IMG/VR virus record: IMGVR_UViG_3300031839_000507
Location: 1-23,376 of that record
From: a virus
Strand: one strand, 5' to 3'
DNA length: 23,376 nucleotides
Both the position numbers and the translations under genes were made by a program. Below the pieces are notes generated by a model. The model saw nothing but the letters and a program-made list of their open reading frames with translations, made no database searches and had not been told where the DNA came from. Shown one piece after another: positions 2,790 through 23,376 of this stretch (its first letter is position 1; each line of letters opens with the position of its first letter).

Positions 2790-3414
2790 AAACTTCAAAG
2801 GGGTATGGATTCCAGCAGACTTGTATTTAGATACAAACTTAACTTGGACGCAGAAGATTATTTTACTAGAGGTAGATTCTTTCTCTAAGAATAATTTAGA
2901 CTGCTTTGTGAGTAATGAGCATTTAGCAGGTTTGATAGGAATTTCTGAGAGTGGAATAGAAAAAGCTATACGTAGTTTAGTAGACAGCAAAAGGCTAGAA
3001 CGAAAGCGTACTTTTATAAATGGGGGTAACCGCCGTCTACTGAGGTTACCTACCTCACTCAGGTGCGGTTCGCAACCTCACTCAGATGAGGTTCGTACCC
3101 TCACTCAGGTGAGGCATACTATAACCAATGACCTTAACCAACTACCTAAACCAATTAAAGGGCGACCTAAAAATTTTGATGAGGTTTTAGATTACTTTAA
3201 AGATTTAGGAATGTTATTGGACGAAGCACAAAAATTTGTAGATTGGTACGATTCAGTAGGGTGGAAAGTCAAAGGCGGTAATTCAATTAAAGACTGGAAG
3301 GCTTGCGCGAGACAATGGAAACGCAGAAATAAACAAAACACGCATGGAAAAAAAGGATTTAACACAGACAACTTTACACCTGAAGCCCTTAACGATTTCG
3401 TTAATAACGGATAA
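2782..3414 (+). CDS. Phage replication initiator (winged-helix, lambda O / DnaD-like type)
   Basis: This is a 210-residue protein. Residues 1-90 contain the N-terminal winged-helix typical of Bacteroidota phage and plasmid initiators: FKGVWIPADLYLD, then a helix with QKIILLEVDSFSK, then FVSNEHLAGLIGISESGIEKAIRSL and a basic wing (LERKR...RRLLRL). Residues 83-126 are a low-complexity linker encoded by an iteron array. Residues 130-190 hold the usual C-terminal block (FDEVLDYFKDLGMLLDEAQKF, WYDSVGWKVKGG, IKDWKACARQWKR), also common to this group. It would bind the origin inside its own gene and recruit helicase, as O does in lambda. The next gene overlaps its end by 71 bases. Confidence 0.8.
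   Translation: MGRNFKGVWIPADLYLDTNLTWTQKIILLEVDSFSKNNLDCFVSNEHLAGLIGISESGIEKAIRSLVDSKRLERKRTFINGGNRRLLRLPTSLRCGSQPHSDEVRTLTQVRHTITNDLNQLPKPIKGRPKNFDEVLDYFKDLGMLLDEAQKFVDWYDSVGWKVKGGNSIKDWKACARQWKRRNKQNTHGKKGFNTDNFTPEALNDFVNNG
3030..3114 (+). repeat. Iteron array, candidate replication origin
   Basis: Three copies of a 23-bp unit start at 3053, 3076 and 3099 with exact 23-base spacing. All begin with CCTCACTCAG; units one and two match at 19 of 23 positions, and the third matches over its first 16. Each contains an inverted repeat of the form CCTCAC-TCAG-GTGAGG. A degenerate unit at 3030-3052 keeps only the TGAGGTT core in register. Because 23 is not a multiple of three, the repeats are read in different frames, so they must be maintained as DNA and not as peptide. 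They lie within the initiator gene, as in lambda ori. Confidence 0.75.
3121..3159 (+). repeat. Three AT-rich 13-mers beside the iterons, candidate unwinding element
   Basis: Three adjacent 13-base units (ATAACCAATGACC, TTAACCAACTACC, TAAACCAATTAAA) share the AAACCAA/TAACCAA core with period 13. They start six bases after the last iteron. This resembles the AT-rich region next to the lambda iterons and the 13-mers of oriC, where the duplex opens. The repeat is in coding sequence, and 13 is not a multiple of three. Confidence 0.55.
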
Positions 3415-3934
3415 CAAAACCTTAGTCAAACCGACAGAGGCTTGGGAGTCGGGAACGAATATACAGACAGCCGTAAAGCACAACCCACAAATTGTAAGGG
3501 GTTGGATTATGGCAGAGGTAGGTAGGCTTATAAAAGAAGTGGATGCAAATAAAACTCTCTCTACAGACGAAGAGATACAATTCTGTTGTAGGAGTATTTT
3601 AGAAGAACACCCCACTTTAAAGCTAGAAGAGATACGGGTTTGTTTCGTTATGATACGACAAGGGAAATTTGGTAAACTATTTGAAAGGCTAAAAACAGCA
3701 GAGATTTTAGATTGCTTGAGAAAGTACGAAGGTGAAGTACGAACCGAAGTAATGGAGTCACTACACAGGAAACGAAAGTCAGAGTCATTTGATACTATCG
3801 AACGTTCAAAAGATTACAAGCCTTTAGGTGAGTTTTTAAAGGACGTACTCAACGAGCCTACACCAGACAGAAATTTTGATAGGCTAGGGACTAGATTAAA
3901 AAATAAAAATAAGTCGCATAACGAAGAGAAGTAA
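3344..3934 (+). CDS. Conserved replication-associated protein, DUF6633-like
   Basis: This is a 196-residue protein starting inside the initiator gene (71-base overlap in another frame). The middle, residues 45-130 (PQIVRGWIMAEVGRLIKE, STDEEIQFCCRSILEEHPTL, LEEIRVCFVMIRQGKFGKLFERL, AEILDCLRKYEGE), matches what I remember of a Bacteroidota family labelled DUF6633, which is common next to phage and transposon replication initiators. The C-terminus is charged and probably disordered. By position it is analogous to lambda P, so a helicase-loading or accessory role is possible; no ATPase motif is present. The next in-frame Met is near residue 50, so the upstream start is preferred. Confidence 0.6.
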   Translation: MEKKDLTQTTLHLKPLTISLITDNKTLVKPTEAWESGTNIQTAVKHNPQIVRGWIMAEVGRLIKEVDANKTLSTDEEIQFCCRSILEEHPTLKLEEIRVCFVMIRQGKFGKLFERLKTAEILDCLRKYEGEVRTEVMESLHRKRKSESFDTIERSKDYKPLGEFLKDVLNEPTPDRNFDRLGTRLKNKNKSHNEEK

Positions 3935-4004
3935 CCTATCTTTACGCTATTCATAGTATCGGTTGTTCTTTCGGTATTGTGGATAAGTGTGTGCGTTTGT
4001 TTAA

Positions 4005-4032
4005 AGGGAGGGGCATTAGCCTCTCTTTTTTT
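4005..4032 (+). terminator. Rho-independent terminator at the end of the early operon
   Basis: GAGGGGC (4008-4014) pairs with GCCTCTC (4019-4025) around an ATTA loop, with one G-U pair. The stem is extendable by G-U and A-U pairs and is followed by seven T residues (4026-4032). It lies between the early operon and the NinG gene, 16 bases before the GTG chosen as start of that gene. Confidence 0.75.
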
Positions 4033-4047
4033 GTCTTATATTTCGCT

Positions 4048-4446
4048 GTGCGAAAGCGAGAGAAAAAGAAACTAGACGATGCCCTAAGCAAGTACGTGCG
4101 TAAGAGCAACGCAGATGAAAACGGATTTATAAACTGTTTTACTTGTGGTGCGAAAAAGGACTGGAAGTATGAAACCGATTGCGGTCACTTTCAAAGCAGG
4201 TCAAAGATGAGTACAAGATTTCTTTACGAACCTGAACATGGTATGGTTAATGTCATGCCCCAATGTAAGAGGTGTAATATGAGAGGGGGAGAACAGTATC
4301 TTTTTAGTAAACGCTTGGACGAAGTGTTTGGAAAAGGTACAGCCGAAAAGATTGAAATTATGAGCAATAAAACACGCAAGTTTTCTACACAAGAAATGAT
4401 AGAGTTGAGAGAACACTTTACGCGAAAATTTAATGAGCTGCCTTAA
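4048..4446 (+). CDS. ninG: NinG/Rap-type recombination protein
   Basis: This is a 132-residue protein from GTG 4048. The frame stays open upstream to a GTG at 3979, but that stretch contains the terminator hairpin and T-run and encodes an unlikely hydrophobic run (ISLSFFVLYF). The match to the NinG core begins exactly after it. The core is KLDDALSKYVRKSNADENGF, C30-x2-C33 (CFTCG), GHFQSR, STRF, PQC73KRC76N, GGEQYLFSKRLDEVFGKGTAE. The two Cys pairs probably bind zinc. In lambda, NinG (Rap) is a structure-specific nuclease that acts on recombination intermediates. The usual N-terminal extension with another Cys cluster is absent, so this is a short form. It overlaps the next gene by 14 bases. 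Confidence 0.85.
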   Translation: MRKREKKKLDDALSKYVRKSNADENGFINCFTCGAKKDWKYETDCGHFQSRSKMSTRFLYEPEHGMVNVMPQCKRCNMRGGEQYLFSKRLDEVFGKGTAEKIEIMSNKTRKFSTQEMIELREHFTRKFNELP

Positions 4447-4969
4447 CAGATTCTTTAAGGAGAACTACGACGAACTGTTAAAAGTTTCAAACCGTTACGT
4501 TGGAGGATATGGGGGCGACTTACTTCACGATTTAGCAGTATACTATTTAGAAGAACCTAGACCACTTTTGGAGAAGATGTGTGAAGACGGAGATTTAATG
4601 AAATACATATGCAGAACAATGGCTATATGTGGTTTCAGCAGCACAACCAGATTCTACTACAAGTATAAAAAATATAGCGAGAAATTAGTAAACTACCCTC
4701 CGTCTCTATTGAAAGCTGTTGATGAAGATGTTGATAACGAATATGATACAACGGAGACAATTAAATATATTAACACTATATTGCAAGACATGGATTGGTT
4801 TAACGCAGAAATTTTCCGCATATACTATCTTCACAGTCACTCATTAAAATCATTATCTAATGCCACAGGTATCTCAAAAAGCACCCTCTACAACGCCCTC
4901 AAAAAAGCCCAAGAAGAAGTCAAAGAAAAAGTCAAAGGGTATAGGAGACTCGATAGAGAAGATAACTGA
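4433..4969 (+). CDS. Sigma-70 region-4-like HTH protein, candidate late transcription regulator
   Basis: This is a 178-residue protein. The N-terminal half has GGDLLHDLAVYYLEEP and MKYICRTMAICGF, which resemble sigma-factor-like helices. Residues 117-165 (QDMDWFNAEIFRIYYLHSHS, LKSLSNATGISKSTLYNALKKAQEEVKEKV) give a standard region-4-type helix-turn-helix with GISKSTLYNAL as recognition unit. Proteins of this type occur just before the terminase in many Bacteroidota phages and are thought to drive late genes. That role is inferred from position and fold. Its last 110 bases also encode the N-terminus of the next gene in another frame. Confidence 0.6.
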   Translation: MSCLNRFFKENYDELLKVSNRYVGGYGGDLLHDLAVYYLEEPRPLLEKMCEDGDLMKYICRTMAICGFSSTTRFYYKYKKYSEKLVNYPPSLLKAVDEDVDNEYDTTETIKYINTILQDMDWFNAEIFRIYYLHSHSLKSLSNATGISKSTLYNALKKAQEEVKEKVKGYRRLDREDN

Positions 4970-17838: not shown

Positions 17839-18105
17839 ATGAGTGCAGAAAGAATAGTACAAGATTATCTCGGTACATGGGAGCTATACATAGTTATCAT
17901 GGATATTGCTATGGAAGAGATAGGGGCAACTGGGAAGTTGTTAGAGCTAATGGAGGACGCTTCTGACGCACTAGCAGACGGTGATACAGATGCGACATTT
18001 AGGTTATTAGATATGGCATACGACACAGCAGAGTCTCAATACGGAGTAGGAGTAGAAACAGATTTAATAGTTGAGCTATTAGTAGAATTAATTAATTTAA
18101 AATGA
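17839..18105 (+). CDS. Small acidic cassette protein 3
   Basis: This 88-residue, almost all-helical protein has about 20 Asp/Glu and 4 Lys/Arg. ELYIVIMDIAMEEIGATGKLLELMEDASDALADGDTDATFRLLDMAYDTAES gives two or three amphipathic helices. It differs from the beta-containing cassette members. The stop overlaps the next ATG (AAATGAAAAA at 18102-18105). It is not recognised. Extreme acidity recalls DNA-mimic proteins, but no specific similarity is visible. Confidence 0.6.
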   Translation: MSAERIVQDYLGTWELYIVIMDIAMEEIGATGKLLELMEDASDALADGDTDATFRLLDMAYDTAESQYGVGVETDLIVELLVELINLK

Positions 18106-18395
18106 AAAATAAAAAAACAGAGCTAGGCTACAACGGCTGGGCGAATCGTGAGACATGGTTAATATCAGTATGGGAGTACATTGAATACTTTGTAGACGTT
18201 TATTTTGATAATGGGGACAAGCCTGATGATGTAGACTCAAGAGATTTAGAAAGTATGTTTGACGACATAATAGACCGTCCTAATAGTGGCATAGAGTCAG
18301 ATTTAATTGGAGGCGCAATATCTCTAATTGATTGGTATGAGATTGAACGCCACGTTAAGGAGCAGCTAGAAGAAAAGATAATGGATAACTTCTAA
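18102..18395 (+). CDS. Small acidic protein with YNGWANRETW motif (DUF7249-like)
   Basis: This 97-residue protein has 24 Asp/Glu and 10 Lys/Arg. The N-terminal YNGWANRETWLISVW is a well-known short motif (YNGWxNxETWxxxxW) in proteins of phages, plasmids and host genomes; I believe the label is DUF7249. A helical, acidic body follows (DDVDSRDLESMFDDIIDR, LIDWYEIERHVKEQLEEKI). No biochemical function is known to me. Its wide spread among mobile elements supports the idea that the surrounding island is a collection of accessory genes. Confidence 0.7.
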   Translation: MKNKKTELGYNGWANRETWLISVWEYIEYFVDVYFDNGDKPDDVDSRDLESMFDDIIDRPNSGIESDLIGGAISLIDWYEIERHVKEQLEEKIMDNF

Positions 18396-18408
18396 TAAAA
18401 AGAATATG
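18393..18408 (+). repeat. AT-rich leader repeat, copy 1
   Basis: TAATAAAAAGAATATG ends in the ATG of the gene at 18406. The same string, extended upstream by AGTTTAA, occurs at 18637-18655 and 18863-18881, and with one change at 19106-19125. It marks four successive gene starts about 224-247 bases apart. Confidence 0.75.
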
Positions 18409-18633
18409 GAATATTTAGGAGGGTTTAAAGTCTTTGACGCTGACGCTAATGAGATACAAGATTTAATAGATTGGAACACTCAAAGTTTTGGCAGGGGTGC
18501 TTCTTTAAGTGACGCTACTTACGAAGTTTTCCAAGATGGAACAGATGTATTAGTAGATATTTATGGGAGTGACCGTAGTGTAGTTCAAACGATTTACGTT
18601 TGGATTGAGGACGAAGGATATGATTTACCTTAA
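18406..18633 (+). CDS. Small acidic cassette protein 5
   Basis: This 75-residue protein has 16 Asp/Glu and 3 Lys/Arg. The pattern is a beta start (GGFKVFDAD), helix (ANEIQDLIDWNTQ), beta (TYEVFQDG), beta (DVLVDIYG) and helix (VVQTIYVWIEDEGYDLP). The WIEDEGYDLP end parallels SLEDEGYKITEV in the next gene. It stands behind the repeated AATAAAAAGAATATG leader. The function is unknown. Confidence 0.65.
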   Translation: MEYLGGFKVFDADANEIQDLIDWNTQSFGRGASLSDATYEVFQDGTDVLVDIYGSDRSVVQTIYVWIEDEGYDLP

Positions 18634-18668
18634 TGAGTTTAATAAAAAGAATATGGATATTTATATAG
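18633..18668 (+). other. Eleven-codon micro-frame MSLIKRIWIFI, relic or leader peptide
   Basis: ATG AGT TTA ATA AAA AGA ATA TGG opens in the stop codon of the previous gene and ends at 18668. The first eight codons copy those that start the gene at 19103 (MSLINRIW). The real downstream gene starts inside it, at ATG 18653. It is either a translational coupling peptide or what remains after duplication of the 19103 gene start. Confidence 0.45.
18637..18655 (+). repeat. AT-rich leader repeat, copy 2
   Basis: AGTTTAATAAAAAGAATATG ends at the ATG of the gene at 18653 (repeat core 18637-18655). It matches the copy before 18879 base for base. Confidence 0.75.
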
Positions 18669-18868
18669 ACGGTTTAGAAAAAGGAAGACATTACGAAGTT
18701 TTAGAAAAAATAATTGACTTAGGCTTTGAAGCATACGCGCGTCTTGAAAACTATGGGAGGTATGCAGTCGTTGAAATTTTAGGCGTAGACGAGTGGGATA
18801 TGGCAGGTGACTTAGGATATTATCTTGAGTCTTTAGAAGACGAGGGATATAAAATAACGGAAGTTTAA
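18653..18868 (+). CDS. Small acidic cassette protein 6
   Basis: This is a 71-residue protein from ATG 18653. The frame is open to an upstream ATG-less start at 18605, but that would overlap the previous gene, and the repeat leader points to 18653. It has 18 Asp/Glu and 6 Lys/Arg. The order is beta (DIYIDG), helix (HYEVLEKIIDLGF), beta (EAYARLENY), beta (YAVVEILGV), helix (AGDLGYYLESLEDEGY) and beta (KITEV), matching cassette proteins 1 and 7 in length and layout. The function is unknown. Confidence 0.65.
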   Translation: MDIYIDGLEKGRHYEVLEKIIDLGFEAYARLENYGRYAVVEILGVDEWDMAGDLGYYLESLEDEGYKITEV

Positions 18869-18881
18869 TAAAAAGAATATG
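18863..18881 (+). repeat. AT-rich leader repeat, copy 3
   Basis: AGTTTAATAAAAAGAATATG ends at the ATG of the gene at 18879. It overlaps the stop codon of the gene before, so coding and leader are merged. Confidence 0.75.
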
Positions 18882-19103
18882 CAATTTGAATTACTTGTAA
18901 ATACGTTTGATAATAACAATCATAGAGAAATAGAAAATGTTATTGAAGACCACGATTTTGATATGTTTGGTTCAATACCTTACGTTGAAATAATAAAAGA
19001 TGGTGATTATTATATTCTTGCTGACAGCTATGAAGACGTTTATATTTTCTCTGACATTTTAGACCATCTAGGAATAAACTACACCCTTAGAGAAGTTTAC
19101 TAA
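18879..19103 (+). CDS. Small acidic cassette protein 7
   Basis: This is a 74-residue protein with 17 Asp/Glu and only 3 Lys/Arg. The order is beta (FELLVNTF), helix (NNHREIENVIEDHDF), beta (VEIIKDG), beta (YYILADS), helix (YIFSDILDHLGI) and beta (YTLREVY), the same order as cassette proteins 1 and 6. The stop overlaps the start of the next gene by one base. The function is unknown. The charge is as extreme as in known DNA-mimic inhibitors, but no homology is seen. Confidence 0.65.
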   Translation: MQFELLVNTFDNNNHREIENVIEDHDFDMFGSIPYVEIIKDGDYYILADSYEDVYIFSDILDHLGINYTLREVY

Positions 19104-19363
19104 TGAGTTTAATAAATAGAATATGGGACGTATGGACTAACTCAGCACAAGAGGAGTTAATCGTTATGCTAGAAGAGTTCGCATACGACTATGATTACGA
19201 CACTAGATTCTTAGCAGTAGCAGGACAGATTGAAGACGCTATTTACGATGAAGACTACGAGAGGGTACGCTTACTATTCCAGAAGTATGCCCCTGAAACA
19301 CTCCGTACTATAGACGGACAATTATTTATGGAAATTATTGACGAAGCCGATTATGGATATTAA
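19103..19363 (+). CDS. Small acidic cassette protein 8
   Basis: This 86-residue, mainly helical protein has about 20 Asp/Glu and 6 Lys/Arg: AQEELIVMLEEFAYDYDYDTRF, AGQIEDAIYDEDYERVRLLFQKY, GQLFMEIIDEADYGY. Its first codons (MSLINRIW) are themselves the fourth copy of the leader repeat (19106-19125), so here the leader has become coding sequence. The micro-frame at 18633 carries the same codons. The function is unknown. Confidence 0.6.
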   Translation: MSLINRIWDVWTNSAQEELIVMLEEFAYDYDYDTRFLAVAGQIEDAIYDEDYERVRLLFQKYAPETLRTIDGQLFMEIIDEADYGY

Positions 19364-19655
19364 ATTAAACGCAGTAGAGTCTCTACAAACAGTATTAGAC
19401 ATATTAGAGGACTTTGGATATGATACTGAAGACACAACAATTAGTGACGAAAGTAGCGGCTCTAACATATGGGTTTTTTTACATGGCTACATTTCTTATT
19501 TTGATAACTTTGATATGTTACAATTTGAATACGATTTAGAGGACGCTTTAATAGAGGTAGGAATAAATAGAGACGTAGATATAAAAAAGCTAAAGCCAAT
19601 ATATTCTAATGGTCAAACTATAGCAGTTCAGGTCAGCATTGAGTTGAGAAAATAA
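19353..19655 (+). CDS. Small acidic cassette protein 9
   Basis: This is a 100-residue protein from ATG 19353; an upstream TTG at 19338 is possible but adds only five residues inside the previous gene. It has 20 Asp/Glu and 7 Lys/Arg. The first helix SLQTVLDILEDFGYD resembles the helix and Gly turn of the other members. Then come beta (NIWVFLHGYI), a helix (QFEYDLEDALIEVGI) and a beta end (TIAVQVSIELRK). It overlaps the previous gene by 11 bases. The function is unknown. Confidence 0.6.
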   Translation: MDIKLNAVESLQTVLDILEDFGYDTEDTTISDESSGSNIWVFLHGYISYFDNFDMLQFEYDLEDALIEVGINRDVDIKKLKPIYSNGQTIAVQVSIELRK

Positions 19656-22674: not shown

Positions 22675-23376
22675 ATGATACAGTTAGATTCTACAGCAGC
22701 AAAAAAATTCGCGGTACATTTAGAAGGCTATGAAGGTATAGGGGAGGGGGAACTGGTTAAAAATGGTGACTTCTCTGAGTTAGGTTCAGACCTTGTCACG
22801 AATGGTGACTTTGCTGAGATAGGTTCTGAGCTTGTAACGAATGGAGATTTTAGTGCTGTTCCATTAGGTAGTGAACTTGTAATCAATGGAGATTTTGCAA
22901 CGGATACTGATTGGACTAAAATTAATGGTGCAACAATTAGTGGAGGTAAAGCTAATATTGATGGGGATGGCACTTCGTTTACATCTATAAGACAATCTAA
23001 TATTTTTACTGAAGGTAAAATTTACCAAGTAACTGCTGATGTAATAATAACAAGTGGGTTAGGTTTGAAATTTCAAGATGGTGCTAACAATGAAAATATT
23101 GGTTTTGCAACTACATCAGGTACTTACACATTTTCTTTTGTTGCTACAAGTGATTCTTCTTTTGTTATAGGTAGAAGAACTGGGGGTACTGCTTTTGAAT
23201 CTTCAATCAACAACGTTTCAGTCAAGGAACAAACCAACCTTGTCACAAATCCAAACTTTACGGATACTTCAAGTGAGCTTGTTACAAATGGGAACTTTGC
23301 AACGGATACAGATTGGACGCTTATTGCACCAAACATTAATATAAGTGATGGTAAATTAAATTTTGTTTCCGCAGCT
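22675..23376 (+). CDS. Tail fibre / adhesin with repeated carbohydrate-binding-like modules, 5' part
   Basis: The frame is open from ATG 22675 to the end of the window (234 codons, no stop), so the gene is incomplete. After a short N-terminal part (MIQLDSTAAKKFAVHLEGYEG), LVxNGDF-type motifs occur six times: four in quick succession (residues about 28-80), then a full beta module with DWTKINGATISGGKANIDG, GKIYQVTADVIITSG, SGTYTFSFVATSDSSFVIG and SINNVSVKE, then a second round starting. This module resembles CBM-like jelly-roll repeats in marine phage fibres and could bind surface sugars. The start codon sits behind TTATATATAAAGGT, similar to the leader of the scaffold gene. Confidence 0.7.
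   Translation, partial: MIQLDSTAAKKFAVHLEGYEGIGEGELVKNGDFSELGSDLVTNGDFAEIGSELVTNGDFSAVPLGSELVINGDFATDTDWTKINGATISGGKANIDGDGTSFTSIRQSNIFTEGKIYQVTADVIITSGLGLKFQDGANNENIGFATTSGTYTFSFVATSDSSFVIGRRTGGTAFESSINNVSVKEQTNLVTNPNFTDTSSELVTNGNFATDTDWTLIAPNINISDGKLNFVSAA

Follow-up and report, generated by a model that had tools for sequence, protein, structure and literature searches.

The analysed DNA, referred to here as the window, is a virus record of 23,376 bases whose major genes all lie on one strand. One of these genes encodes a protein of 210 residues in which an N-terminal winged helix is followed by a linker that is disordered in the structure model (residues 96-122, pLDDT < 50) and by a C-terminal helical domain of the phrog_15768/28809 family. 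The protein contains an HTH_36 domain above the Pfam cut-off (28.8 bits versus 25), and a PHROG search matched it to profiles of replication initiation proteins. At E <= 1, Pfam detected neither Phage_rep_O (PF04492), which recognizes lambda O itself at 5.7e-36, nor RepA_N (PF06970), and by Pfam the initiator is outside both families. Among its relatives RepA_N was matched only by one distant locus, L089, and there below the cut-off (7.3e-5). The N-terminal domain matched phrog_391, 678 and 345 at 2e-6 to 8.5e-5; lambda O matches the same three profiles, 678 and 345 across its N-terminal half, and in a direct profile comparison the similarity to lambda O was not significant. The modelled N-terminus aligned with 4pql_B (Z 8.6, rmsd 4.0 over 102 residues) and 4pt7_B (Z 8.4, rmsd 3.8 over 97 residues), both tied with many MarR-type winged helices. 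The first-pass annotation had called the initiator specifically Bacteroidota-type. This had to be given up, as Pseudomonas phages, Bacillota phages and others encode initiators of the same kind, and the N-terminal domain fits lambda-O-like PHROG profiles. The features of the locus are collected in Table 1.

Table 1. Features of the initiator locus (positions in the window).
Feature	Position	Strand	Basis and remarks
Replication initiator gene, 210 aa	2782-3414	+	HTH_36, PHROG replication-initiation profiles, structure model
Degenerate fourth iteron	3030-3052	+	14 of 23 positions match, right half-site TGAGGTT intact; direct-repeat family
Iteron 1, core CCTCACTCAGGTGCGG at 3053-3068	3053-3075	+	Direct-repeat family, Tandem Repeats Finder, core scan
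Iteron 2, core CCTCACTCAGATGAGG at 3076-3091	3076-3098	+	Direct-repeat family, Tandem Repeats Finder, core scan
Iteron 3, core CCTCACTCAGGTGAGG at 3099-3114	3099-3121	+	Direct-repeat family, Tandem Repeats Finder, core scan
Candidate unwinding tract: TAACCAATGACCT, TAACCAACTACCT, AAACCAATTAAAG	3122-3160	+	Repeat p = 0.019, 67% AT, position of TAATACA in relatives
DUF6633-like gene, candidate helicase loader or loader partner	3344-3934	+	Overlaps the initiator gene; putative function
Intrinsic-terminator-like stem and T run	4003-4030	+	Consensus scan

Three 23-bp inverted-repeat iterons lie in the linker-coding part of the initiator gene, and the core of iteron 3 is a perfect inverted repeat with arms of 6+6 bases (CCTCAC-TCAG-GTGAGG). 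Tandem Repeats Finder reported positions 3041-3114 with a period of 23, 3.2 copies and 82% match. In the 23,376 bases the cores are unique at up to three mismatches, with 0.07 matches expected by chance. The array was compared with 300 synonymous-codon shuffles that keep the protein and the codon usage: its score of 28.5 was reached by none of them (mean 8.6, maximum 15.0). It codes for initiator residues of about 87-111 and overlaps the segment that is disordered in the model. Since each of the three copies is translated in a different frame (TSLRC, PHSDE and TLTQVR), there is no peptide repeat and selection acts on the DNA. The three iterons, the degenerate copy ahead of them and selection on DNA instead of peptide had all been proposed from the sequence on first reading, and each of these proposals was borne out. 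A turn of the cumulative GC-skew at the array, which had also been predicted, was absent; with all major genes on one strand, this result says little. By a generic inverted-repeat score the initiator gene was indistinguishable from its shuffles, because one pair of 6-bp arms is weak evidence, whereas periodicity set it apart. A scan for DnaA boxes in the window returned one match, which is the chance level. Exact matches of CCTCACTCAGGTGAGG in four other contigs (L055, L057, L060 and L064) fall in unrelated genes and were set aside as chance-like.

The tract behind the array had been described as three AT-rich 13-mers beginning six bases after the last core; the distance is in fact 7. Two copies are good (3122-3134 and 3135-3147, 85%), the third is poor (8/13), the repeat reaches p = 0.019 and the enrichment in AT is modest, with 67% in the tract against 61% in the whole initiator gene and 65% over the 48 nt after the array. 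Regarding instability, 20% of the 48-nt windows of the initiator gene equal these 48 nt. The top strand of the tract is G-poor. An AT-rich unwinding region is therefore weak in the window's own sequence and becomes convincing only through the relatives, many of which carry TAATACA at this place. In the window and its near clade TAATACA is absent and TAACCAA occupies its position; the 13-mers of the first-pass annotation are this TAACCAA element.

The gene that follows the initiator matches DUF6633 at E 0.0011, below the Pfam cut-off. We found no loader signature in it, its model is poor (pLDDT 51), and its position is that of loaders beside related initiators. A replication gene adjoins the initiator in 8 of 10 annotated relatives, the other two giving no statement: a DnaC-like loader in a Porphyromonas phage and in Skulduggery, a phage of the laboratory host Pseudomonas fluorescens SBW25 whose layout is the same, replication protein P in Psychrobacter, a DnaB-like helicase in Vibrio and in Pseudomonas HU1, an ATPase in a plasmid and in Oceanospirillum, and a protein annotated as DnaA-like initiator in Lysinibacillus. 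No DnaB gene was found in 15 related records, which are fragments; this is in line with the use of a host helicase. The host is likely a member of the Bacteroidota, judging from the terminase, whose best matches among those listed come from Flavobacterium phages and one gut phage, at 38-41% identity. In L052, L053 and L054 the DUF6633 gene is preceded by quite different, unrelated initiators, so that initiator and origin seem to be exchanged as a block ahead of this gene. The initiator of L052 has a 22-bp palindromic array of its own, of the TAGACAATTTGTCTA type.

Downstream, the terminator-like element could mark the end of an initiator-loader operon. It falls inside a mechanically called NinG ORF (3979-4446) in which homology to NinG begins only at residue 25-29, and the true start of NinG is therefore probably further downstream. 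NinG is followed at 4433-4969 by a divergent sigma-70-like protein (TIGR02937, below cut-off), possibly a late-gene regulator. Elsewhere in the window, a run of small acidic ORFs of 74-105 aa that may be mutual paralogues extends over 18102-19655, and a 39-bp tandem repeat at 22762-22851 encodes repeated LVTNGDF units in an open ORF from 22675, the product of which is probably a receptor-binding or tail protein.

Relatives of the initiator were found at 40 loci in viral contigs, and the spacing was examined in 11 clade representatives (44-100% identical). Self-identity of their linker DNA exceeded that of codon shuffles by 0.186 at lag 23 (t 12.6) and by 0.163 at lag 46, compared with only 0.042 at the best lag in the N-terminal coding DNA that served as control. 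The half-sites that recur at 23 bp are CCTCAC/GTGAGG in the window, L003-L008 and L015-L019, CACCC/GGGTG in L009-L014, L046 and L047, CGGT/ACCG in L048 and CGG/CCG in L021, where the signal is weakest. Thus, in the 11 representatives the 23-bp spacing is kept through four unrelated iteron sequences. The case named in advance as refuting an origin, that relatives keep the amino acids of the linker and lose the repeats, was not encountered. The opposite was found: linker identity in the CACCC class is 36-44%, and a 23-bp array with another half-site is present. Although its protein is nearer to that of the window than the L015 group, the CACCC class has a different iteron. This class is one clade in the tree of N-terminal DNA (98/97), and the type of iteron thus follows the domain that binds DNA. 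The trees hinted at recombination between the N- and C-terminal domains; we did not retain this idea, as the C-terminal data do not reject a single CACCC clade (p-AU 0.077 for protein, 0.267 for DNA). When aligned, the CCTCAC and CACCC classes share an identical recognition helix, SESG[IV]EK, whereas the wing reads NGGNRR in one and GGSHRT in the other. The wing is therefore a candidate for the specificity switch between the two iteron classes.

Arrays of their own were also detected in more distant initiators, namely in Pseudomonas prophages and phages (L065-L067, L088, L097 and L099), a Lysinibacillus phage (L098), a Paraclostridium plasmid (L095), an Oceanospirillum phage (L096) and marine and gut contigs. 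Under the same strict filter, 15 of 33 initiator-like genes had an array compared with 7 of 238 control genes, at least two of the seven being initiators themselves. As a positive control, lambda O was detected by the period method (period 20, 0 of 200 shuffles). The rep gene of TP901-1 gave no significant period, and hence the method misses some origins. A held-out set of 106 further loci was fetched with two other initiators as queries and reduced to 52 non-redundant genes dissimilar to the earlier ones. A significant array was found in 43 of them and none was detected in the remaining 9. The period was 22 or 23 in 31 of the 43, and all midpoints fell in the linker at residues 93-130. Judged from these sequences, layout and spacing are retained in relatives from several bacterial phyla, while the repeats are rewritten.

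The element TAATACA was first noted directly 3' of the array in 19 of 30 genes of the first set, where 4.1 were expected; in the held-out set 30 of 43 genes have it behind the array, where 9.0 were expected. Counted in the 90 nt after the array, it occurs at L015-L019, L022, L033, L035, L065-L068, L088, L095-L099 and L100-L205. The held-out genes contain 52 copies in 3.87 kb of post-array sequence and 2 in the other 29 kb of the same genes. TAATATA and CAATACA are variants also seen there in these relatives. The reverse complement has zero copies in the post-array tract of relatives; the element is always on the coding strand, and its codon phase is constant in all 76 copies, encoding Asn-Thr. 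Given this single phase, the peptide may contribute to the conservation. However, after the array 62 of 72 Asn-Thr pairs use AAT-ACA and 2 use AAT-ACT, compared with 5 and 12 of 42 elsewhere in the same genes. As ACA and ACT are equal in AT content, this choice is not accounted for by the peptide or by AT-richness alone. In most lineages only 0.3-4% of windows are as unstable as the post-array tract, which in relatives is usually less stable than any other part of the gene. Runs with A at every third base that resemble DnaA-trios also occur after the array; nearly all are at codon position 1, where they follow Thr/Asn/Ser/Lys codons and are inseparable from the composition of the peptide, and for this reason they were dropped in favour of the codon-choice test. 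In the open-access literature, to which our search was confined, we found no description of TAATACAA in such origins and no paper on such origins in Bacteroidetes or Flavobacterium phages. A cross-phylum TAATACA element appears to be undescribed.

We consider it probable, at roughly 0.86, that the array is the replication origin of the phage, located inside the initiator gene and read by the product of that gene. Initiator dimers would bind each iteron via the winged-helix domain, and the 23-bp spacing, about 2.2 helical turns, could wind them into a complex like the O-some of lambda that opens the tract downstream of the array. The top-strand motif, TAATACA in relatives and TAACCAA in the window, might then be held single-stranded by the initiator or the loader. 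The product of the next gene together with the C-terminal domain of the initiator would recruit the host DnaB helicase; we propose the host enzyme because no helicase gene was found in the 15 related records. As the linker is little constrained as protein, one segment can be coding sequence and origin at the same time.

Inverted repeats are typical of operators as well, and a small gene for a 76-aa HTH protein (2465-2695) is located just upstream of the initiator gene. The initiator or this protein could therefore control transcription from the array while replication starts elsewhere, and autoregulation could even coexist with origin function. However, the site is absent from every promoter region of the window at up to three mismatches, and an operator would not call for a 22-23-bp linker array that recurs in almost all lineages and is invariably located in the initiator gene, or for a motif tract behind it. 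We regard control of transcription in place of replication as improbable. Action of the repeats as RNA, with hairpins in the initiator mRNA slowing translation or transcription between the two domains, is still less probable. Folding of the transcript is indeed far more stable than that of shuffles (z -4.5), but this is to be expected of the RNA from any array of DNA palindromes. The repeated copies, with centres at a constant distance of nearly two helical turns, suit proteins bound side by side instead of one hairpin. Furthermore, there is no Rfam match, and the neighbouring genes in relatives are replication genes.

A packaging, partition, copy-control or recombination site could by chance lie in an initiator gene, and pac sites may indeed be intragenic, as in gene 3 of P22 (PMC8022706). 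Here the site accompanies the initiator and not the terminase genes, is found on the plasmid record L095 as well, and its class follows the DNA-binding domain of the initiator, which makes such a site very improbable. Linkers tolerate repeats, and the array could in principle have arisen by drift or slippage in a disordered segment without any function of the DNA. The period, no multiple of three, places the copies in three reading frames, none of the 300 protein-preserving shuffles reproduced the array, and independent arrays occur in 43 of 52 held-out genes. These results largely refute drift, to which we assign next to no probability.

If the array is the origin, a testable rule follows for a large and widespread class of phage initiators: the initiator gene would be all that is needed to locate the origin, with spacing and not sequence as the guide. 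Variable iterons at constant spacing and layout would offer a natural series for the joint change of initiator and origin specificity, and TAATACA points to a second, sequence-specific step of origin opening that models based on lambda leave open. A more general proposal, for which we see even odds, is that a single origin code in two parts is common to the HTH_36 phage initiators of Bacillota, Pseudomonadota and Bacteroidota-type lineages, consisting of a freely changing iteron at 22-23 bp and a nearly fixed top-strand T-AAT-ACA that is read single-stranded by a conserved partner, with TAACCAA as the variant of the window's clade. The linker array with 22-23-bp spacing is a property of HTH_36 initiators found here and not part of an established definition; the window has it, at 23 bp. 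TAATACA is common among these initiators (30 of 43 held-out) and not defining, and the window is without it.

Among the closest known arrangements is that of ori lambda, which lies in gene O, and of the O/18-type origins in P22, L and Stx phages, where inverted-repeat iterons lie mid-gene in the initiator at a spacing of about 20-24 bp, as in the window (PMC8022706, PMC7466680). Lambda iterons are inverted repeats that bind O dimers, unlike most plasmid iterons (PMC5043065), and lambda, P22 and L have different iterons inside distantly related initiator genes (PMC8022706); iteron sequence likewise varies between the relatives of the window. In origins of the lambda type an AT-rich tract lies just 3' of the iterons, whereas the tract of the window is weak and carries TAACCAA, and TAATACA in relatives. 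A helicase-recruiting gene follows in the lambda type; its counterpart by position in the window is the DUF6633-like gene, a candidate for a helicase loader or a partner of one. The window initiator also differs from lambda O in having no Phage_rep_O domain, in its C-terminal domain and in a spacing that is uniformly 23 bp. The lambda-like layout suggested on first reading thus stands as regards the array in the linker (43 of 52 held-out) and the loaders, protein P, ATPases or helicases beside homologous initiators, and is weak as regards the unwinding region of the window itself.

RepA_N plasmids such as pSK41 and the chimeric pPR9 type combine a winged-helix N-terminus with binding sites central in rep (PMC5703833), a layout similar to that of the window. 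In pSK41 the Rep boxes occupy the central part of rep, which codes for the linker, and the N-terminus of pPR9 Rep is of the phage-like HTH_36 kind (PMC5703833). In the window, too, the array encodes the linker between the two domains, and 4pql and 4pt7 align with the modelled N-terminus over about 100 residues, a likeness of the degree that winged helices generally show. In contrast to these plasmids, the window has no RepA_N match and another C-terminal family, and it belongs to a phage with a separate downstream gene. For plasmid Rep proteins, sequence-specific binding to single strands of the AT-rich region has been reported (PMC4081077). In SPP1, oriL in gene 38 places repeats and an AT-rich unwinding element inside the initiator gene with the helicase loader next (PMC6316719), although SPP1 encodes a DnaB-type helicase itself and possesses a second origin; the likeness meant here is one of layout. 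In comparison with these systems the layout itself is already known; new are its breadth, the conservation of spacing despite turnover of the repeats, and the TAATACA element.
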